Source: an uncultured Phascolarctobacterium sp. (GTDB taxonomy: Bacteria > Bacillota > Negativicutes > Acidaminococcales > Acidaminococcaceae). Taken from it: a DNA stretch of 64,000 bases. A program made the translations under genes and the position numbers. The stretch is from positions 1 through 64,000 of the forward strand of contig CANRJC010000006.1 of assembly GCA_947630795.1 (NCBI GenBank), given 5' to 3'. Positions 36,762-53,977 of the stretch are shown one piece after another (the stretch's first letter is position 1; the number at the start of each line of letters is the position of its first letter). Below the pieces are notes generated by a model. The model did not search any database. It was not told the DNA's origin and was given only the letters and a program-made list of their open reading frames with translations.

Positions 36762-37922
36762 TCAGTGCCTTTCCTTCAGCAATTCTTCCACCCGCTCCCG
36801 CATGCTCTCTTTTTTCTTTTTGTTCTTGCTTTGCCGAGCGGACTTTTGAACTTCGTCTTTTTTATCGGCGCCGGGGGAATTCATTAGGCCCACGTAGCGG
36901 ACCATGATCTTTTGGCAATAGTAGCCTCCCATGGCCCAAGTGCCGTTGAGGCCGTACCATTTGTCGATGAGCCCCCGCTGCAGCCGCAGCTTGTGGGCCA
37001 TATCGTAGCGGGGATCGATGATCTTGGTCTTGGGCTTGGCCTTGGAAGCGTATGCCAAAAGGTGCTGGATGTGGGCCCGCACCCCTAGTTGCGGCGTTTT
37101 GAAGGAAGCTCCCCGCACACCGCCGCCGGTGGTGCCCAAGCCGCAGAAATTGTTCTGCTTGTGTTTCACGTCGCCGCCGTAGGCGAAGACCCCCGTCTCC
37201 ACCAACGCCTGACAGAGAGCCAGATCGGGACGGATGCCTTCGAGTCCCGCTTCTTCCCAATAATATTTCACGATATCTTCCACCGAACAGGCCAAGTCCG
37301 GCTTTTTATTGCAGGCTTTGATGTAGGCCACAGCCTGAGCCTTGGTGGCCGCAGGACTGCCGAAGATGCTGATGTTTTCAAAATCGGCAGGCAGGGCGAC
37401 ACCGTTATAAATCACCCGCTTGCTCTCCTCTTGCTTTTGGTGCTTGGCTTTTTCTTTGGCCGCTTTCTCCGCCTCTTTGCGGGCTTCTTCTGCTGCCTTC
37501 TCCGCTTTTTTGCGGGCCTTGGCCGCTTCCTTTTGCATTTTGCGCAAAACTTTTTCGTCTGCAGGTGCTGCCGTTTGTGCCTTTGCCGCATTCTGAGCAG
37601 TTGCTGCTGCTTGCTCGGCTACCTCGCTCTTTAAAGTTTTGGCTGCCTGCTCGCTCTTCACCTTGCCGGCCACCCGTTTGCCGCTGGTGATGTCCACCCC
37701 CGGGTTGCGCAGCACCGGGCTCTGACGTCGCGGCAGCATCACCTTCGCGGGAGAAGGCTGCACTTTGGGAGCGGCTGCGGTGCTCTCCCTCTTGGGTGCG
37801 GCGGCAACAGCGGGAGCCGCGTCGATATCTTCTTTCGCCGTAGCCCCTGCGGGAGGGGCCCACAGGCCGAGGCTGAAGCCGACAGCCAAAAAAGCTGCGG
37901 CAAATTTTGTCTTGGTCGTCAT
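36762..37922 (-). CDS. Secreted glucosaminidase-domain peptidoglycan hydrolase
   Basis: This 386-residue protein has a Sec signal peptide (about 1-29, hydrophobic core AAAFLAVGFSLGL, cleavage near AGATA). A Pro/Ala-rich region follows, then a Lys/Ala/Glu coiled-coil-like stretch (about 145-200). The glucosaminidase domain (about 215-355) has LALCQALVETGVFAYGG with the catalytic Glu, NNFCGLGTTGG, GVRAHIQHLLAYA and a YGLNGTWA repeat, as in autolysins. A basic tail ends it. It probably cleaves N-acetylglucosamine bonds of peptidoglycan in the periplasm. The upstream TATAAT at 37962-37967 lacks a good -35. Confidence 0.85.
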   Translation of the reverse strand: MTTKTKFAAAFLAVGFSLGLWAPPAGATAKEDIDAAPAVAAAPKRESTAAAPKVQPSPAKVMLPRRQSPVLRNPGVDITSGKRVAGKVKSEQAAKTLKSEVAEQAAATAQNAAKAQTAAPADEKVLRKMQKEAAKARKKAEKAAEEARKEAEKAAKEKAKHQKQEESKRVIYNGVALPADFENISIFGSPAATKAQAVAYIKACNKKPDLACSVEDIVKYYWEEAGLEGIRPDLALCQALVETGVFAYGGDVKHKQNNFCGLGTTGGGVRGASFKTPQLGVRAHIQHLLAYASKAKPKTKIIDPRYDMAHKLRLQRGLIDKWYGLNGTWAMGGYYCQKIMVRYVGLMNSPGADKKDEVQKSARQSKNKKKKESMRERVEELLKERH

Positions 37923-38320
37923 GTTGAGCTCCTTATAAATTTGATCGCATCGATTATCTTGATTATAGCAAATTTTTTCCGCAAAGTACACGGCGAAGGA
38001 AAAAAGCGCAAAGCGGCGATGCCCGTTTCTTTGCGCACATAGAGCAAACAAAATTTTTTTAACTGCACGGCGCTGCTCATCTCTGCGCGAATTTTTTTCG
38101 TCGGCCGTTGAACAAGCAGCGCACAATGCAGAACGTCGCAGGATCTCGCGTCTCGATCAGATAAGGTACAATACTATGCGCAAAATAATATAGGACACAG
38201 TTCCCGAGCTCTGGTAGAATGAGATTAGCACAGAACACATTCGAAAGGAGCTGAGAACTATGTCCGAAATTTTTTCGAGACCAGACAAAGAAACAAAATT
38301 TACGCATTACCCCCCCAACA
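37923..38320. other. Intergenic region rfbB-glucosaminidase with a truncated plus-strand gene start
   Basis: 398 bases. The right half (38160-38320) contains TAGAAT, GAAAGGAG and an ATG at 38260 on the plus strand. The left half has AT-rich spacer with TTTTTTC tracts. Confidence 0.5.
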
Positions 38321-44105: not shown

Positions 44106-45389
44106 CTACAAATTCCCTATCAGCCGCAAATAAAATTCGTCGCCGCCGTAAACGCCCTCCAAACTGAGGAACTCGTGCACCCGATAGCGCACTCCGTATT
44201 CGTTGCGGTCGTTGCGGGAGAAATGCTGAGCTCTCAGTATCCACTTCGGCCCCAGACCGTATTCCAATTTATAAACATTATCCCCGGTGGGCGTGCGCCG
44301 CATGTAGCTCCAGCTGCTCTTCCCCCACAGCCGGGCATAGCCCAAGCCGTAGCGCCAGTGCACCTCATCCAACGTGACCTCCGCTTCCCCGAAGATCTCG
44401 TCCTCCGGTCCTATCATTTTGCCCAAATGAGCCTTGCCGGAAAGATTTTCATTTTCTCTTCCTATATCGCCGTAACCTTCGAAGTAAAGCCTGTACTCTT
44501 TGGAATTCATCAACAGCTCCACGTCTAAAGTGCTGCCCGGAGTCAATTTCACAGTGGGAGTGAGGCCGTAATCTTTTACCTCTCTTTCTTTGAGCAACGC
44601 TCCCAACAGTTGCTCTTCCAACTCTTCTTTATGCTGTTTTATGTAGTCTACCGGCAAGCCTCTGAACCTGTCGCAGTACTGCCGATATTTATACTTCAAC
44701 TCCATCAGCATGATGTTGGGGATGGACTGACTGCGCATTTCGTACCTGATATCGCTCACCAGCGGTCCCAGCGGATAGATGATCACCTGTACCGCAGTCT
44801 TCTCTCCGTCCTGTGTGAGGTCCACAGCCGCCTTGAATTCCGGCAACTGTGCTTCCACCTCTTCCCGCACCAAACGGCGCAAGATGCCGCCGGCCCAATC
44901 TCCCACATCGCGGGAAGCTCCGTTGATCGTGGCAGCCAACCGTTGCCGCAGGCCGGGCAGTTTTTGCTCTAAAAGAGCAGCTACTTCTCCGTCCAAACCG
45001 GAGAAGCGTATGTCGATATCTGCGTCGGCGATGACACCGCTCCACGGGCGCAAATAAAAAACCAGCTGCGCCCCGGGCTCGACATTCAATTCTACCGCTG
45101 CGGTCTCGTAACCGCTGAATACTCTGTCGGCTATCTCCCTGAAGAGAGCCTGATAAGCTTCTCTCTCACCGGCCACGGCGTCCGTCTCTTTATCCAACAG
45201 CAACTGCTGCGCCACTATCTCCATGCTGCCGGCCATCTTCGCCAAAAGAGGAGCGCTGGTGCCGCCGTTGGCATCGTACACCTCTACGTCTACTCTTTCT
45301 ATAGATCGTGAAAAAAGAGGCTGCAATGGCAGCACTAAATTGATGATGCCTACCATTGCAGCCGCACGGACTAAGCTGAAAGTTCCCAT
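44106..45389 (-). CDS. Unrecognised envelope protein downstream of BamA, predicted barrel-like C-terminus
   Basis: I do not recognise this 427-residue protein. It has an N-terminal hydrophobic export segment (about 5-28). Next come a mixed alpha/beta region with small-domain periodicity (60-240), a helical bridge (KYKYRQYCDRFRGLPVDYIKQHKEELEEQLL, about 242-272), and from about 285 alternating aromatic strands (YRLYFEGYGDI, HWRYGLGYARLWG, YKLEYGLGPKWILRAQHFS) ending FYLRLIGNL. That end looks like an outer-membrane strand signal, though Leu replaces the usual Phe. It lies 43 bases after bamA and is probably co-transcribed. A patatin-like or TamA-like role cannot be shown. Confidence 0.65.
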   Translation of the reverse strand: MGTFSLVRAAAMVGIINLVLPLQPLFSRSIERVDVEVYDANGGTSAPLLAKMAGSMEIVAQQLLLDKETDAVAGEREAYQALFREIADRVFSGYETAAVELNVEPGAQLVFYLRPWSGVIADADIDIRFSGLDGEVAALLEQKLPGLRQRLAATINGASRDVGDWAGGILRRLVREEVEAQLPEFKAAVDLTQDGEKTAVQVIIYPLGPLVSDIRYEMRSQSIPNIMLMELKYKYRQYCDRFRGLPVDYIKQHKEELEEQLLGALLKEREVKDYGLTPTVKLTPGSTLDVELLMNSKEYRLYFEGYGDIGRENENLSGKAHLGKMIGPEDEIFGEAEVTLDEVHWRYGLGYARLWGKSSWSYMRRTPTGDNVYKLEYGLGPKWILRAQHFSRNDRNEYGVRYRVHEFLSLEGVYGGDEFYLRLIGNL

Positions 45390-45432: not shown

Positions 45433-47991
45433 TTAGAACTGGCCGCCGAAGCTGAAATGGAACTTGCCTCCCTCATCGCCGACGCCGTAATCCAATTTGA
45501 TGGGACCCAAGGGGGAATTTACTCTGACGCCCACGCCCACGCTGCTCTTGACGAGCCCCATGTCGAAGTCGTCCTGGAAGCGTTTATCCCAGGCATAACC
45601 GTTGTCGTTGAACAACACGCCCTGCACCCGCTTCACGATGGGGAAGCGGTACTCCAAGGTGGCCTTCACCATGCTGTTGCCTCTGAACTGATCGTCTTCG
45701 TAGCCTCTCAGGGTGTCGCTGCCACCCATACGGAAGCGCTGGGACAAAGGCATATCGCCCTTGGCAAAGCCGGCCGCCAAATTGAGCGCCCACACTGTCT
45801 GACCGCCGCCGCGATAATAATAGCGCCAGTCGGCGGAAAGTTTGGTGAAATCGAAGTCGCCGCCCATGAAACCGGCATGCTCGATGCTGTAGCTGGTGCG
45901 CTTGCCTTCATGAGGATCGTAGATATTGTCGCGAGAATCGTACACTCTGCCCACAGTGATGGAGCGGGTAGTGCCGAAATTTTCCTTGCGGCGGGCTTCG
46001 GCGGTGGCAGGCTCGTAGGGACGTCGCTTGCTGTCGTAACTGCTCTCGTAGTACTGAGTGATGCCTTCGTAGCCGTCGGCCACGCCTTTGTAGATGTCCT
46101 GCCTATTTTTCAAAACAATGTAGTTGGAGATGAAATCGTTGTTCGTCTTCCGGCTCAAGGTCAATTCTTGGCCGCGGCGCTTTTTGTCGTAACGGGCGAT
46201 GCGGTCGTCGTCTATGTTGTAATCTTCATACTCGTTGGTGATATCGTAAAGATTGATGGTACCGGTGGTCTCTTTACTGTCCAGCCAAGGCCGGGTGTAG
46301 CTGAAGTCGTAGTTGCGGTTGTCTTCGCCGCCGAACTCCCAGCGTATGTTGACCCTGTCGCCGATACCTCTGAAGTTTTTATCGCCCACGGAGATCATGC
46401 CGATGAAGCCGTCCGCATGGCTATAGCCGGCACCGATGCCGAAGGTACCGGTATTCATCTCGACTACGGAGATCTCCACCTCGACCGCATTGGGCTCACG
46501 CCCGGGGTTGAGCCTTACATTCACGTCTTCAAAATAACCCAAATTGTAGATACGCTGCATGCTGCGGCGGGCGTCTTTGGCGTTGAAAGGCCGACCCACT
46601 TTCAGGCGCATCTCCCGGGTGATGACGTAGTCTTTGCACTTTACGTTGCCTTTGGTTTTGAACCCTTCCACCAAACCTTCGTTAACGGTGATGCTCAGGA
46701 TGCCGTCCGGGTTCATGTGCACATCGGTCACCCTAGCCAAAATATAACCTTGGGACCTGTAGGCTTCCTGCAGATCCTGCACGCACTGATTGATCTCCCG
46801 CAGATTGGCGATACGACCTTCGTCCAGATCGAAATAAGCCGCCGCAGGTTTATCCAACTTGACCGAGCTGCCTTCTACGTCGACCCCTTTATAGACGGGA
46901 TTCTCCAGCACATGGTAAACTACTTGAACGCCTTCCGGAACTTTGACGAATTCAGGTCTCAGGTCGTAGAAATAACCGAGGCCGTAAATAGCGCTCAGAT
47001 CTTCGCTCAGCCCCTGCTCCGTGAGAGGGGTGCCCGCTTTCGTCTTTAAAACGGCCAGCACTTCTTCCGCAGGGACCAGTTTATTTCCTTCAACTATTTG
47101 CTTGGCGATCAAAAGGCCTTGGTAAGGAGCTATGGGATCCTCTGCTCCTTCAGCCCGCGCAGGGGCATGATATTGCAATTCATCATGCTGTGCGGCTGCG
47201 GGCCCCAATCCGCTGCCTAAAGGCGGCTGCATGGAACCGTCGTCAGGCTGGTTGGAATTTTCTTTTTTGCCGGTAGAACCTATCACATAGACCTGACTGT
47301 AACTTTCGTTGTCCTGCTGCCGAGGCGCCTCTGCCTCGCTCCTTTCTCCGGCGCCCTTGCGGGTCATGATCTGATGAGTTCCGGCCCCCTGCCCTGCTTC
47401 AGTCGCTCCTTCGTAGGCTGCGGCCTGCTCTCTTGCTTCTTCCTGTCGGGGACTTTGCTCTTCACCCTCGTGTTTGGTCATGATCTGAGTGGCTTCGCCT
47501 GTTCCTCTGTTGGTCTGGCCGATGACGTACACTTGATCGTATTTCTGCCCCTTCTTCCGCTTGGGCAGCTGTTGTTTTCCTTTTCCCTTCTTAACTTTGA
47601 CCTGAGACTTATCTTTGCCCTGGCCGATGACGTACACCTGATCGTATTGCTTCTTGCCCTTCTTGTTGGTCATGATCTGGTGCGATCTTACTTCTTCCCT
47701 CTCATCGGCGGGATTTTTGGGATCGGCGCTGTTCTCTTTCTTATCCGCATTGGTCTCGCCGATGACGTAAACATACTTGCCGTTTTTTCCTCTGGCTTTT
47801 TTGTCGGCCTTCTCTGCCGCCTTGCGCAATTTGACGGGAATGAATTCTCCGTTGCGCACATAAGTGTTGCTGGTACGGCTGTCCTTAGCCGATGCCGCCG
47901 CTGCATATGCATTGGGAACAAACAGCGACGCGGTCAAGACCGCTGCGCTCAATCCTATGGTTATGGAACCGGCCAAACCCCGCTTTTTCAA
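45433..47991 (-). CDS. bamA: BamA-family outer membrane assembly protein with repeat-bearing N-terminal extension
   Basis: BamA inserts beta-barrel proteins into the outer membrane. This 852-residue protein has a signal peptide (cleavage near NAYA-AAA, 30) and an extension (70-245) with four VYVIG motifs (74, 119, 154, 234) and three QIMT motifs (105, 169, 207). About three POTRA domains follow (290-535), then a 16-strand-type barrel with RFRMGGSDTLRGYEDDQFRG's GGSDTLRGY (the VRGF/Y loop motif) and the C-terminal KFHFSFGGQF. It starts with TTG, with AGGAGG eight bases upstream. It is preceded by the TM protein (26 bases). Confidence 0.95.
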   Translation of the reverse strand: MKKRGLAGSITIGLSAAVLTASLFVPNAYAAAASAKDSRTSNTYVRNGEFIPVKLRKAAEKADKKARGKNGKYVYVIGETNADKKENSADPKNPADEREEVRSHQIMTNKKGKKQYDQVYVIGQGKDKSQVKVKKGKGKQQLPKRKKGQKYDQVYVIGQTNRGTGEATQIMTKHEGEEQSPRQEEAREQAAAYEGATEAGQGAGTHQIMTRKGAGERSEAEAPRQQDNESYSQVYVIGSTGKKENSNQPDDGSMQPPLGSGLGPAAAQHDELQYHAPARAEGAEDPIAPYQGLLIAKQIVEGNKLVPAEEVLAVLKTKAGTPLTEQGLSEDLSAIYGLGYFYDLRPEFVKVPEGVQVVYHVLENPVYKGVDVEGSSVKLDKPAAAYFDLDEGRIANLREINQCVQDLQEAYRSQGYILARVTDVHMNPDGILSITVNEGLVEGFKTKGNVKCKDYVITREMRLKVGRPFNAKDARRSMQRIYNLGYFEDVNVRLNPGREPNAVEVEISVVEMNTGTFGIGAGYSHADGFIGMISVGDKNFRGIGDRVNIRWEFGGEDNRNYDFSYTRPWLDSKETTGTINLYDITNEYEDYNIDDDRIARYDKKRRGQELTLSRKTNNDFISNYIVLKNRQDIYKGVADGYEGITQYYESSYDSKRRPYEPATAEARRKENFGTTRSITVGRVYDSRDNIYDPHEGKRTSYSIEHAGFMGGDFDFTKLSADWRYYYRGGGQTVWALNLAAGFAKGDMPLSQRFRMGGSDTLRGYEDDQFRGNSMVKATLEYRFPIVKRVQGVLFNDNGYAWDKRFQDDFDMGLVKSSVGVGVRVNSPLGPIKLDYGVGDEGGKFHFSFGGQF

Positions 47992-49450: not shown

Positions 49451-52400
49451 TCAGAAGGAAACTTTATACTCGAGGCCGTACCAATCTTCGTTATCGGTGC
49501 TGTCCAGCCCTTTTCGCCGGGAATAAGTGATGTTGAAACGGCGAGAGAGATCGATCTGCCCGAAGATCGCAGATTCTTCTGCATCGAAGCTGGTGGTGTA
49601 ACCGAAAAGGAGAGCCGGTGTGAGGTACTTGCTCACCAAAATATTGTAATTCTCTCTCTCTTCTTCCGTCAGTTCCTGAGTCCTGTCCTTGTAACTCTCG
49701 AAGCCCACGCCGCTGCGGGCCTTGCCGGTGTAGACCCGGAATTGGTCTAAGCCCAGAGACTGCTTCATAAACATCTCCACGTCTCCCAACACCGTCATCT
49801 GCAGACCGACGGTCATCAAATTATTTACGTCCTCGCCGGTGACCTCATCGCTGCTGGCGCTCTCTCTCTGCAACGTGAGCATGCGAACGATAGTATCCTT
49901 GCTGAGAGGAGGATTGCTGGTCATGGACAGGGTCATATTATCCACCGGTCCGTTCACTTTCATATCGATGAAGTACCGGCTGAAGCGAGTGGAGCTTTCA
50001 ATGTTCACATTGGGAAGGAAAGTTCCCGGGGTCACCCAAGTGAGCATGGCCCTGCTAAGTTTGAAAGGAGTTCGCAGATAAGTGATGCTGCCTTTATCTG
50101 CTTTGATGTTGCCGCTGATGACGGGGCGAGCGGTGCTGCCTTTGATCGTAAGGCCGCCGTTCAGCCAAATGTCATAGAGGTGAGCATTCAGCATGTGGAT
50201 CTTCGGCCCCAACTCCAAAGTCAGGTCCAGACCCAGATCGGTATCTCCTTCTCCCGTTTCGGGCACGGAAGAAATATTCAAGAGGACATCGTCCAGCCGC
50301 ACTTTCCCCTGCACATGAGGCCGATAGTCCGTCACGCTCTGCTTGCTCTCGCTGTTTGTTCTGCGGCGGTAACGGCGGGGCTCTATCACCAGATCGCTGT
50401 TGATCGTGCCGGTGAAAACAGGGCCGGTGACTTTGGCATCTTTCGCATTTATGTGGAGACGATAAGCATCTTCTGCCTGAGCCAAAGGAGCGTAGCTGCC
50501 TTGTGCCGTGACTCTGCCCTGCCCCAAAGCGGCCGACAGGTCCTTGAGCACCACTTTATCTCCCTCAAAGGCCATATCCGTATTGATATGATCCAAGATG
50601 CTGGTCACTTGTCTGAATTTTATGCTGCCGTCTTCGATGCGCAGCCCTCCCCGCAGCAACGGGCTTTCCAAAGTGCCGCCGATGTGCAGCCGCCCTTTCG
50701 TATCTCCCGTTGCCCATTCCACCAGATCGCTGAACATAGGCAAGAGACCCAGCCGAGCTTCGTCCAGATCGATATCTATATCCAATTCGGCGCCGGGCTG
50801 TTTTTTCTCTCCTCGGTCGTAGAGCAGATCCAAAGGTATCCTGCCTCTGCTTCTCACCCGATAGATATCCTTGGCCAGCACTGCCTCTATCAAACGGATG
50901 GCGCCGTTTTCGACATCCAGAGCCGCATCGATGTTGTCTAATTTTACTCCGGCCACGCCGGCCTGCTGGATGTTGAGATAGGCGGTACCCACAGGATCGT
51001 CGAAGCTACCGGCCACATGGGCGAAAAGATCCATCTTGCCGGTGATCTCCGGCGGCTCGTCCATGACGCCGGTGATGATGGCAGGATTGGCCCCGACGGT
51101 ACGCAAATTGAGGTCCAAACTCTTCCCGAGGGTATCGATGAGGCCGCCGGCTACGATGATACCGGTGTGTTCATTTTCCTTTTTTTCCTGAAGCTTGACA
51201 TTTTCCAGATACAGCACGCCTTTTTGCATGTGCCCTTTAAAACGCATGCCGTAATATTCAAGGTCGTGGATGGTCACATCTTCCACGTGGGCGTCGATAT
51301 CGATCCGCCGATCGCCTTTGGCGTTGATCACGATGTCGCCGATCAAAGTGCCGTCGATCTTGTAGTCCAAATTGCAGAGCCTCAGCAGGCCCCCTACTTT
51401 GCCCCACAATACTCCCACGTTGCCCCGCAGATCATGGGCCGGTATATTCAGGCTGAGTTGGGCCCGATAGAGGCCGTACTCGCCATCACTATCAGAGTGA
51501 GGCTGCTTGAATTCCGCTTCCAGTTTATTTACATCGCGGCCGTTGCTCTTTAAGGTGCCGGAAAGTTCTGTAAGTGTCTCGCCGTTGACGGTTATGGCTT
51601 CGCTGTTCACTTTTCCTTCGAAATAAGGAGCGCTCACCGTGCCGCCGACGTGGCCTTTGGCGTTGAACAGACCTTCCATCTGCCACTCGCTGCTCATGAT
51701 GGGCAGTCTTTTTAAGTTGAAATCATCCGCTTCGACATCGAAATCCAACCGCTGTCTTTTATCCATGTGGCCTTTCAGCCGCAACTTCGCTCCCAAAGTG
51801 GAGATGAAGGCACTGCGCAAATAGACCGCTCCGTCGTCCAGCATGTAGCGGCTGCGGACGCTGTCCAGCAAATAGCCCTGCACGCTGCCGTCGTAAAGAT
51901 GGGCTTCTCCTTCTATATGCAAATTGCTCAAAGGCCCCGTCACCTGCATAACGTTGTCGAAGTTGCCGGTCAAATGAGTGGTCTCCGTCAGTCCTGCGAC
52001 GGCCACCAGAGGCTCCACCCTCACTCCCTTCGTCTCCAACGCCAAATCCAGAACAGGTTCCGCTCCCCGCAGGTCCACACTGCCCGCAACGTTGTGAGTG
52101 CCCTGTTCCATTTTCGCTTCCGCTTCTTTGACGGTAACTATATTATCCGCCAAAGCAAGATAGCCGTGAGCCTCTTTGATCTTCTGACCCATGATCGCAG
52201 CTTTGTCCAGAACGACTTTTCCTTTAAAGGAAGGGGCGGTAAGACTGCCGTTCACGACAAAATCTGCCGATAAATAACCGGAGCCTTGATAGTCGACCAC
52301 GTCTAAAAAGGGATGGATGGGAAAGTGGGCCATACGGCCGGCCAAAGCCAACTGCCCTTTCGTATCGATGCTGCCCACGGCGGCCAAACTTCCTTCGCCG

Positions 52401-53758
52401 CCCCGCACGCCCAAATGGCGAAGGGTCAATTTTTTCCCGTCCCAATAACCGTCCATGGTCAAATTGGCAAGCTCCAGACTGCGCCAGCCCACCTGCAAAG
52501 TTTCTGCGGCCCCTTCTATTTGCGCACTGCCTTCTTCGTTGAAAGCGGCCCTGAAGGCTGCCGCGCCGTCCAGCCGCACTTCTTCCCGCGGCCTATCGGG
52601 CAGCGGCAACGTCACTTTATCGAAATCGAGATCGCAGGCAAGAGCCCTCTCTTTCAGAGCATAGCTGAGCCCGGCCTCGATCAGGCCGCCGCCGACTGCT
52701 GCTCTGGCAGCGGCCACATGGAGAAGATCTTTATTGACGGCGATGGGTATGCGAAGATCTCGGACCGTGTAGCCTTTATAAGCCAGCTCCTCGGCTCGCA
52801 CTTCCAGCCTGCCTTCGGGGCTTGCCGCATCTTCCAGATCCAGCTCGCCTTCCAGTTCGATCGGCTTATCCAGCAGAAAGGCCCGCAAACCGTCGAAGCT
52901 CACTATGCTCTCTCTGGCTTTGACGGTGCCGTCGAGAGCTACTTTGTATTTTTCGCCGCCGAAAGCATAAACGGCAGCGACGGAGTCTAAGTCGACGCTG
53001 CCGCTGTAGCGCATCTTGCCGTTTTTGTTACTGTAATGGACGTGGACGTCTTTCACTGCCCCTGCCAATTCTTCCGCTTGCGCCAAATGCAGAGCCAAGG
53101 GAGCATAGGGCGACAGGGAGAAAACTGCGGTATCGAGAGTAAGGCTACCCTCTCCTTTCATATTCAGCTGCCCCTTCAAGGCCAAAGTTTCATTTCTGTC
53201 TAGGGGCTTGATCTCGGCGGCCAGAGCAAAGTCGGGGTTAGCCCCGCCGTTGGCCTTGGCCTCTACGCCGTAGCCCCACCTGCCGTAAGGAGTGGCTACT
53301 TCCAAATAGCCGTTTTCGATCTCCAAAAGACCGTAGAAAGGTGTCTCGTCGGAATCGGACTCCTTCATCAGTTTTGCCAAGTTCCAATTATTTTTATCGT
53401 CTAAGACCAGATAAGCCCGAGGCTCTTTCAAAGTTACGCGGCTCACCGCTTTCAAAGGCTCGCTCAGACCCAGCCACGGCCTCACTTCCACTTGCGTGCC
53501 GCCAACGGCGGCCAACACCTTTCCCTCTTCATCTTTCAGCAGCACATCTTCCAAAGTGAGGCTGAGGCCGCCGCTCCAGCGTACGCCGCCGATCTTTATG
53601 CTGCCGTTGATGAAGTCGCCGGCCAAAGCTTCTGCCCGTGGCAGAGCTGCCTGCAATAGAGCGGGGGCGACTTTTTGCACAAAATAGGCATAGGCCGCCC
53701 CCAGCACCACCAGGATGCAGCCTATGCCTATCATCAGCTTGCTTTTCAAAAAAGCCAT
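49451..53758 (-). CDS. tamB: TamB-like translocation and assembly module protein (AsmA/DUF490)
   Basis: This 1435-residue protein has one N-terminal membrane anchor (about 7-28, MIGIGCILVVLGAAYAYF) and a very long beta-rich periplasmic body with repeating AsmA-type strands (INGSIKIGGVRWSGGLSLTLEDVLL). It ends in a DUF490/TamB C-terminus of about 300 residues (GSITYLRTPFKLSRAMLTWV, FIDMKVNGPVDNMTL, ITYSRRKGLDSTDNEDWYGLEYKVSF). Such proteins bridge inner and outer membranes for phospholipid transport and barrel assembly. The ATG at 53758 is used. It heads tamB-sigma-TM protein-bamA. Confidence 0.93.
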   Translation of the reverse strand: MAFLKSKLMIGIGCILVVLGAAYAYFVQKVAPALLQAALPRAEALAGDFINGSIKIGGVRWSGGLSLTLEDVLLKDEEGKVLAAVGGTQVEVRPWLGLSEPLKAVSRVTLKEPRAYLVLDDKNNWNLAKLMKESDSDETPFYGLLEIENGYLEVATPYGRWGYGVEAKANGGANPDFALAAEIKPLDRNETLALKGQLNMKGEGSLTLDTAVFSLSPYAPLALHLAQAEELAGAVKDVHVHYSNKNGKMRYSGSVDLDSVAAVYAFGGEKYKVALDGTVKARESIVSFDGLRAFLLDKPIELEGELDLEDAASPEGRLEVRAEELAYKGYTVRDLRIPIAVNKDLLHVAAARAAVGGGLIEAGLSYALKERALACDLDFDKVTLPLPDRPREEVRLDGAAAFRAAFNEEGSAQIEGAAETLQVGWRSLELANLTMDGYWDGKKLTLRHLGVRGGEGSLAAVGSIDTKGQLALAGRMAHFPIHPFLDVVDYQGSGYLSADFVVNGSLTAPSFKGKVVLDKAAIMGQKIKEAHGYLALADNIVTVKEAEAKMEQGTHNVAGSVDLRGAEPVLDLALETKGVRVEPLVAVAGLTETTHLTGNFDNVMQVTGPLSNLHIEGEAHLYDGSVQGYLLDSVRSRYMLDDGAVYLRSAFISTLGAKLRLKGHMDKRQRLDFDVEADDFNLKRLPIMSSEWQMEGLFNAKGHVGGTVSAPYFEGKVNSEAITVNGETLTELSGTLKSNGRDVNKLEAEFKQPHSDSDGEYGLYRAQLSLNIPAHDLRGNVGVLWGKVGGLLRLCNLDYKIDGTLIGDIVINAKGDRRIDIDAHVEDVTIHDLEYYGMRFKGHMQKGVLYLENVKLQEKKENEHTGIIVAGGLIDTLGKSLDLNLRTVGANPAIITGVMDEPPEITGKMDLFAHVAGSFDDPVGTAYLNIQQAGVAGVKLDNIDAALDVENGAIRLIEAVLAKDIYRVRSRGRIPLDLLYDRGEKKQPGAELDIDIDLDEARLGLLPMFSDLVEWATGDTKGRLHIGGTLESPLLRGGLRIEDGSIKFRQVTSILDHINTDMAFEGDKVVLKDLSAALGQGRVTAQGSYAPLAQAEDAYRLHINAKDAKVTGPVFTGTINSDLVIEPRRYRRRTNSESKQSVTDYRPHVQGKVRLDDVLLNISSVPETGEGDTDLGLDLTLELGPKIHMLNAHLYDIWLNGGLTIKGSTARPVISGNIKADKGSITYLRTPFKLSRAMLTWVTPGTFLPNVNIESSTRFSRYFIDMKVNGPVDNMTLSMTSNPPLSKDTIVRMLTLQRESASSDEVTGEDVNNLMTVGLQMTVLGDVEMFMKQSLGLDQFRVYTGKARSGVGFESYKDRTQELTEEERENYNILVSKYLTPALLFGYTTSFDAEESAIFGQIDLSRRFNITYSRRKGLDSTDNEDWYGLEYKVSF

Positions 53759-53977
53759 GTGCCCTGCCTCGTCACGCCAAAAATATACACAGCATACTCT
53801 GTAGAGTTTCGACACAAAGAGATTACTTCCTCTAAAAAAGCGAAACTTTGCAAATTAAATCTTGTGGTGGCTCCCGTCAAAGCTTTTCTTCGGCCACTAC
53901 ATATTGGGGCGCAGAGCTTTGCTCCTCGGCTCGCGAAAGACGGCTGCCCCGCTCTGCCTCCTTTGCTTTTTTCGGCA

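Follow-up and report, generated by a model that had tools for sequence, protein, structure and literature searches.

The window analysed here is a stretch of 64,000 nucleotides from an uncultured Phascolarctobacterium sp. (contig CANRJC010000006.1, assembly GCA_947630795.1), and the gene studied is bamA, which encodes the outer-membrane assembly protein of this gut bacterium (Table 1). Its TTG start is preceded by a good Shine–Dalgarno sequence (GGAGG). The C-terminal part of the protein covers the complete Omp85 barrel family (PF01103, E = 4.3e-47, positions 1–325 of 325), while POTRA repeats precede it (three stretches matching PF07244 and one matching PF08479). A Pfam search of the genome gives a single match to the barrel family, which makes BamA the only Omp85-barrel protein of this organism. 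Between the signal peptide and the first POTRA domain lies an arm of 254 residues. The nearest public record to the gene, with the orthologue of the sister species, is CANQBR010000031 (uncultured Phascolarctobacterium sp. MAG, isolate Lapin-001 bin52), and further matches include Acidaminococcaceae MAGs and Succiniclasticum ruminis, which points to the family Acidaminococcaceae in the class Negativicutes.

Table 1. Positions of bamA, its domains and arm motifs, and tamB in the window.
Feature	Position	Strand	Remarks
bamA	45433..47991	minus	852 aa, TTG start; open reading frame, Omp85 and POTRA Pfam matches, 98% identical orthologue in sister species
Signal peptide MKKRGLAGSITIGLSAAVLTASLFVPNAYA, residues 1–30	47902..47991	minus	Type I-like, without lipobox; read from sequence, cleavage site inferred
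N-terminal periplasmic arm, residues 31–284	47140..47901	minus	Predicted disordered
POTRA region, residues 285–538	46378..47139	minus	Pfam POTRA (three stretches) and POTRA_2; well folded in AlphaFold2 model
Omp85 beta-barrel, residues 539–852	45436..46377	minus	Pfam PF01103
Strand motif copy 1, KYVYVIGET, residues 72–80	47752..47778	minus	Weakly matches GKDGKYTYYMH of other genera
Strand motif copy 2, YDQVYVIGQ, residues 116–124	47620..47646	minus	
Strand motif copy 3, YDQVYVIGQ, residues 151–159	47515..47541	minus	76% identical to copy 2 over 58 nt of DNA; spacing between the two, 105 nt
Strand motif copy 4, YSQVYVIGS, residues 231–239	47275..47301	minus	Synonymous differences from copies 2 and 3 in each of the five VYVIG codons
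QIMT motif copy 1, HQIMTN, residues 104–109	47665..47682	minus	
QIMT motif copy 2, TQIMTK, residues 168–173	47473..47490	minus	
QIMT motif copy 3, HQIMTR, residues 206–211	47359..47376	minus	
tamB, candidate partner gene	49451..53815	minus	Upstream, same orientation as bamA; Pfam PF04357, E = 2.2e-34

Two genes, one sigma-70-like and one small and without a Pfam match, separate bamA from tamB. The two lie near each other as in other Negativicutes, where this synteny has been described (PMC5007114). Homologues of OmpH/Skp are encoded on other contigs of the genome, and genome searches returned no domain match for BamD (YfiO), SurA_N or rotamase. The combination of one Omp85 protein, tamB and Skp homologues with no BamD match fits the published view of the Negativicutes as having one BamA, TamB and Skp and lacking BamBCDE (PMC5007114, PMC5491611). 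The rotamase (parvulin) PPIase was not found in a genome that is listed as 100% complete, and the control search was positive in 8 of 14 known genomes. Directly downstream of bamA, an open reading frame of 427 residues (44106–45389, minus strand) has no Pfam match at E 0.01 and a C-terminal part that looks beta-rich; its product is a candidate envelope protein. Further along the same strand, 36762–38126 encodes a protein that has a glucosaminidase domain and, at the N-terminus, a long segment rich in Ala and Lys; its listed TTG start is probably placed too far upstream.

The arm contains two kinds of short repeated motif. A preliminary description had placed VYVIG at residues 74, 119, 154 and 234 and QIMT at residues 105, 169 and 207, and these positions are correct. 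The repeat region that it delimited as residues 70–245 does contain all of the motifs, but the arm itself is wider, and the longer consensus YxQVYVIG holds in three of the four copies because copy 1 reads GKYVYVIGE. When the arm was shuffled 5000 times, the count of any 5-mer never exceeded two, compared with the four occurrences of VYVIG. The VYVIG segments are also the most hydrophobic five-residue windows of the arm, in agreement with their description as hydrophobic. The arm is charged but not basic throughout, residues 31–180 carrying a net charge of +16 and the remainder one of about −8.

The similarity of copies 2 and 3 at the DNA level implies that duplication produced part of the array. 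This similarity, the nearly identical codons of the QIMT copies, an indel of nine residues that separates the arms of the two Phascolarctobacterium species and the existence of sister genera without the motifs would all be expected if the array were a recent expansion of duplicated DNA with little function, given that low-complexity, fast-changing N-termini are common in secreted proteins. We nevertheless regard such an origin as improbable. Copy 4 is fully diverged at third codon positions (GTC TAT GTG ATA GGT, as against GTG TAC GTC ATC GGC in copies 2 and 3, with no codon in common) and still encodes the same five residues. The substitution pattern in the sister species, taken up below, by itself makes a functionless expansion unlikely. 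Together, this codon turnover and the substitution pattern indicate that selection acts on the protein sequence of the arm, which is more than a product of slippage.

Selection on the arm was estimated from two closely related species only, and in this comparison 38 synonymous and nine nonsynonymous changes correspond to an uncorrected pN/pS of 0.064, compared with 0.022 for the POTRA region and 0.032 for the barrel. The arm is thus genuine coding sequence under purifying selection. The nonsynonymous changes fall at residues 31 and 34, which adjoin the signal peptide, within residues 176–216 and at residue 269, with none in residues 35–175. The motifs of both kinds together show four synonymous changes and no nonsynonymous change. 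Between these two species the motifs are only slightly better conserved than the linkers, so that they do not stand out by conservation.

AlphaFold2 was run on mature BamA with 19 sequences. The POTRA domains and the barrel fold in the resulting model, while the arm is predicted to be disordered, as had been proposed: residues 1–250 of the model have a pLDDT of about 20–30, and residues 1–254, the entire segment between the signal peptide and POTRA1, remain below 50. When the arm was modelled alone, the mean pLDDT was 39. The single-chain models contain no confident strand or strand pairing in the arm, with or without an alignment, and a confident fold for the arm was consequently rejected. 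No Pfam family scores over its cut-off within the arm, and no relative was found in the PDB. These predictions bear on the possibility that the arm folds back onto its own protein, with its strands sitting at the edge of a POTRA domain or in the lateral gate, where they would act as a plug or imitate a substrate. The edge strands of POTRA1 do accept short strands, as seen for SurA (PMC11970506), and the present genome lacks a SurA_N or rotamase match, which would suit such an internal clamp; however, no fold-back is predicted, as the low pLDDT of the arm leaves it without confident structure, and we consider the clamp a doubtful explanation.

The distribution of the motifs is narrow. Motif and profile searches of the genome found neither motif in any other protein; one weak match (E = 0.26), in a 331-residue ABC transporter ATPase frame, was dismissed as chance. 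With the genera labelled g1, g2 and so on, g1 being the genus of this BamA, a profile built from the four strand-motif copies and searched against 300 genomes from the class gave strong matches only in the two species of g1, and outside the genus the same search returned only weak matches (E 0.01–0.04) in other proteins. In a tree built on the POTRA domains plus the barrel, g1 groups with five genera that lack the motifs (g14, g18, g8, g9 and g15). The stretch preceding the POTRA domains in these genera, partly including the signal peptide, is mostly 52–140 residues long and reaches 185 in g9. The motifs are thus shared with the sister species but not with the nearest other genera, whose arms are mostly short. 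Absence from all close relatives, which had been named beforehand as counting against the idea, is nearly what is found at genus level, with the sister species as the sole exception. A variable number of repeats had likewise been anticipated, but each of the two species has four strand motifs and three QIMT motifs. BamA in general can function without the arm, given that the closest sister genera manage with arms that lack the motifs and are mostly short; the motif-bearing arm is a real, selected and lineage-specific feature.

Long low-complexity arms of other composition are present in many Negativicutes BamA proteins. One alternative is that the arm, flexible and in part basic, serves as a spacer or as a tether to peptidoglycan or to anionic envelope polymers, in which the Lys/Gly-rich segments act and the motifs are secondary. 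The positive charge of residues 31–180 and the lack of nonsynonymous changes over almost all of that segment agree with such a role. On the other hand, exact retention of four VYVIG copies despite synonymous turnover is unexpected for a plain spacer, and a general role of charge is unlikely because the other arms in the class are rich in Ala, Pro, Gln and Glu. We judge this alternative unlikely, while giving it more weight than either the functionless expansion or the clamp.

Among the longer arms, those of g5 and g13, which belong to different halves of the tree, contain the conserved islands NQTMTIGGKEQIV and GKDGKYTYYMHNKPSEDISDP, and those of g2 and g11 contain the island YREVRRNGVTYIEKVGK. 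Column identity is higher in these strand-like islands than in the rest of the arm (0.92 versus 0.45, and 0.96–0.98 versus 0.68). In the g2 and g11 arms (L046–L055), the island of 0.92 identity is hairpin-like, YREVRRNG(V/I)TYIEKVGK, and the remainder of the arm is variable. In g5 and g13 (L013–L017, L021), NQTMTIGGKEQIV and YYMHNKPSEDISDP hardly differ between the two deepest halves of the BamA tree and the intervening genera are without them, so that the pattern is either ancestral with many losses or the result of transfer. The arms of these four genera resemble the one described here in being variable, in lying between signal peptide and POTRA domains and in carrying short, strongly conserved, strand-like segments. 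They differ in that their islands are single copies of other sequence, with only that of g5 and g13 weakly similar to copy 1: in a profile of this segment, GKDGKYTYYMH aligns to GKNGKYVYVIG of copy 1, behind a similar Lys/Ala/Glu stretch, with a score of 7.1 bits. Of the global shuffles, 24 of 3998 matched this score, as did 8 of 4000 of the local ones (about 0.2–0.6%); in a repeat run, 10 and 11 of 2000 did so. A common origin of the g5/g13 island and copy 1 is suggested, weakly, by this alignment. A resemblance between QTMT and QIMT in these arms was noticed by eye. The g2 island YREVRRNGVTYIEKVGK scored no better against the arm than shuffles did, and homology between the two was rejected; whole-arm pairwise alignments to other genera were discarded as well (at best, 6–7 of 200 shuffles score equally).

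Two further BamA arms are themselves built on repeats. One (L075, G193; minus strand), from a different family of the class (f17), consists of about three imperfect repeats of TPVTDAIAAQQAAGQ. Another (L077, G122; minus strand) is made up of PAETQQPADTQQ in many copies, a repeat type unrelated to the other two. BamA arms built from repeats seem to have evolved on more than one occasion in the Negativicutes.

Our preferred reading, to which we assign a probability of roughly 0.45, is that the arm is a tether bearing a multivalent array of docking peptides, which would form strands and were amplified within the genus. Strict conservation of the motifs against a background of synonymous divergence, the hydrophobicity of VYVIG and the predicted disorder fit selected short docking peptides, and to this extent the docking role put forward in the preliminary description is partly supported. 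Beta-augmentation, for which that description suggested TamB, a chaperone or the cell wall as partner, is a plausible mechanism. Each VYVIG, and perhaps each QIMT, would form a short beta strand upon binding and add to an exposed sheet edge of the partner, and several weak sites on one flexible tether would provide avidity and reach. A single ancestral strand element within the arm was probably duplicated to give the array. The most attractive candidate partners are the POTRA edges or the arms of neighbouring BamA molecules, in which case the arm would cluster BamA. TamB would come second, its gene being near bamA and the organism having a single Omp85 protein and no match for BamD, and a substrate or Skp third. 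Multimerization is placed before TamB because it is the only function with a direct precedent for a BamA extension. That the docking array goes further and, by linking BamA to BamA or to TamB, stands in as coordinator for the missing Bam lipoproteins and SurA appears rather unlikely.

An arm with conserved repeated motifs offers a concrete and testable handle on the minimal BAM/TAM machines of diderm Firmicutes that lack BamB–E and SurA, and synthetic VYVIG and QIMT peptides could be used as bait. It also marks the N-terminus of BamA as a site of rapid innovation in the Negativicutes, whereas the POTRA domains and the barrel stay conserved.

In the literature searched, nothing on BamA or Omp85 in Phascolarctobacterium was found, nor any BamA repeats of the VYVIG or QIMT kind, in line with the earlier impression that none were known. 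Docking through the arm is made plausible by three precedents. In Borreliella, TamB binds the POTRA domains of BamA (PMC11361582), and the BAM/TAM hybrid of Borreliella and the Negativicutes (PMC11361582, PMC5007114) resembles the present system in linking a single Omp85 protein to TamB with few or no Bam lipoproteins; the contact in Borreliella is, however, made by DUF490 of TamB with POTRA2/3 and not by an N-terminal arm. An N-terminal strand of SurA complements the sheet edge of POTRA1 (PMC11970506), and thus, as in the proposed mode of binding, a short strand completes a BAM sheet edge, although SurA is a separate chaperone of which no SurA_N or rotamase match is found in this genome. The closest parallel is the N-terminal extension of Helicobacter pylori BamA, which is natively disordered and promotes BamA multimerization (PMC5727368). 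It likewise precedes the POTRA domains, but it belongs to an unrelated lineage, comprises only about 67 residues (the full-removal construct being HpBamA-delta67) and has no repeated strand motifs described, compared with 254 residues and seven motif copies here. A disordered N-terminal extension of BamA is therefore already known from H. pylori, and the arm of the Phascolarctobacterium protein is a variant of it with repeated motifs.
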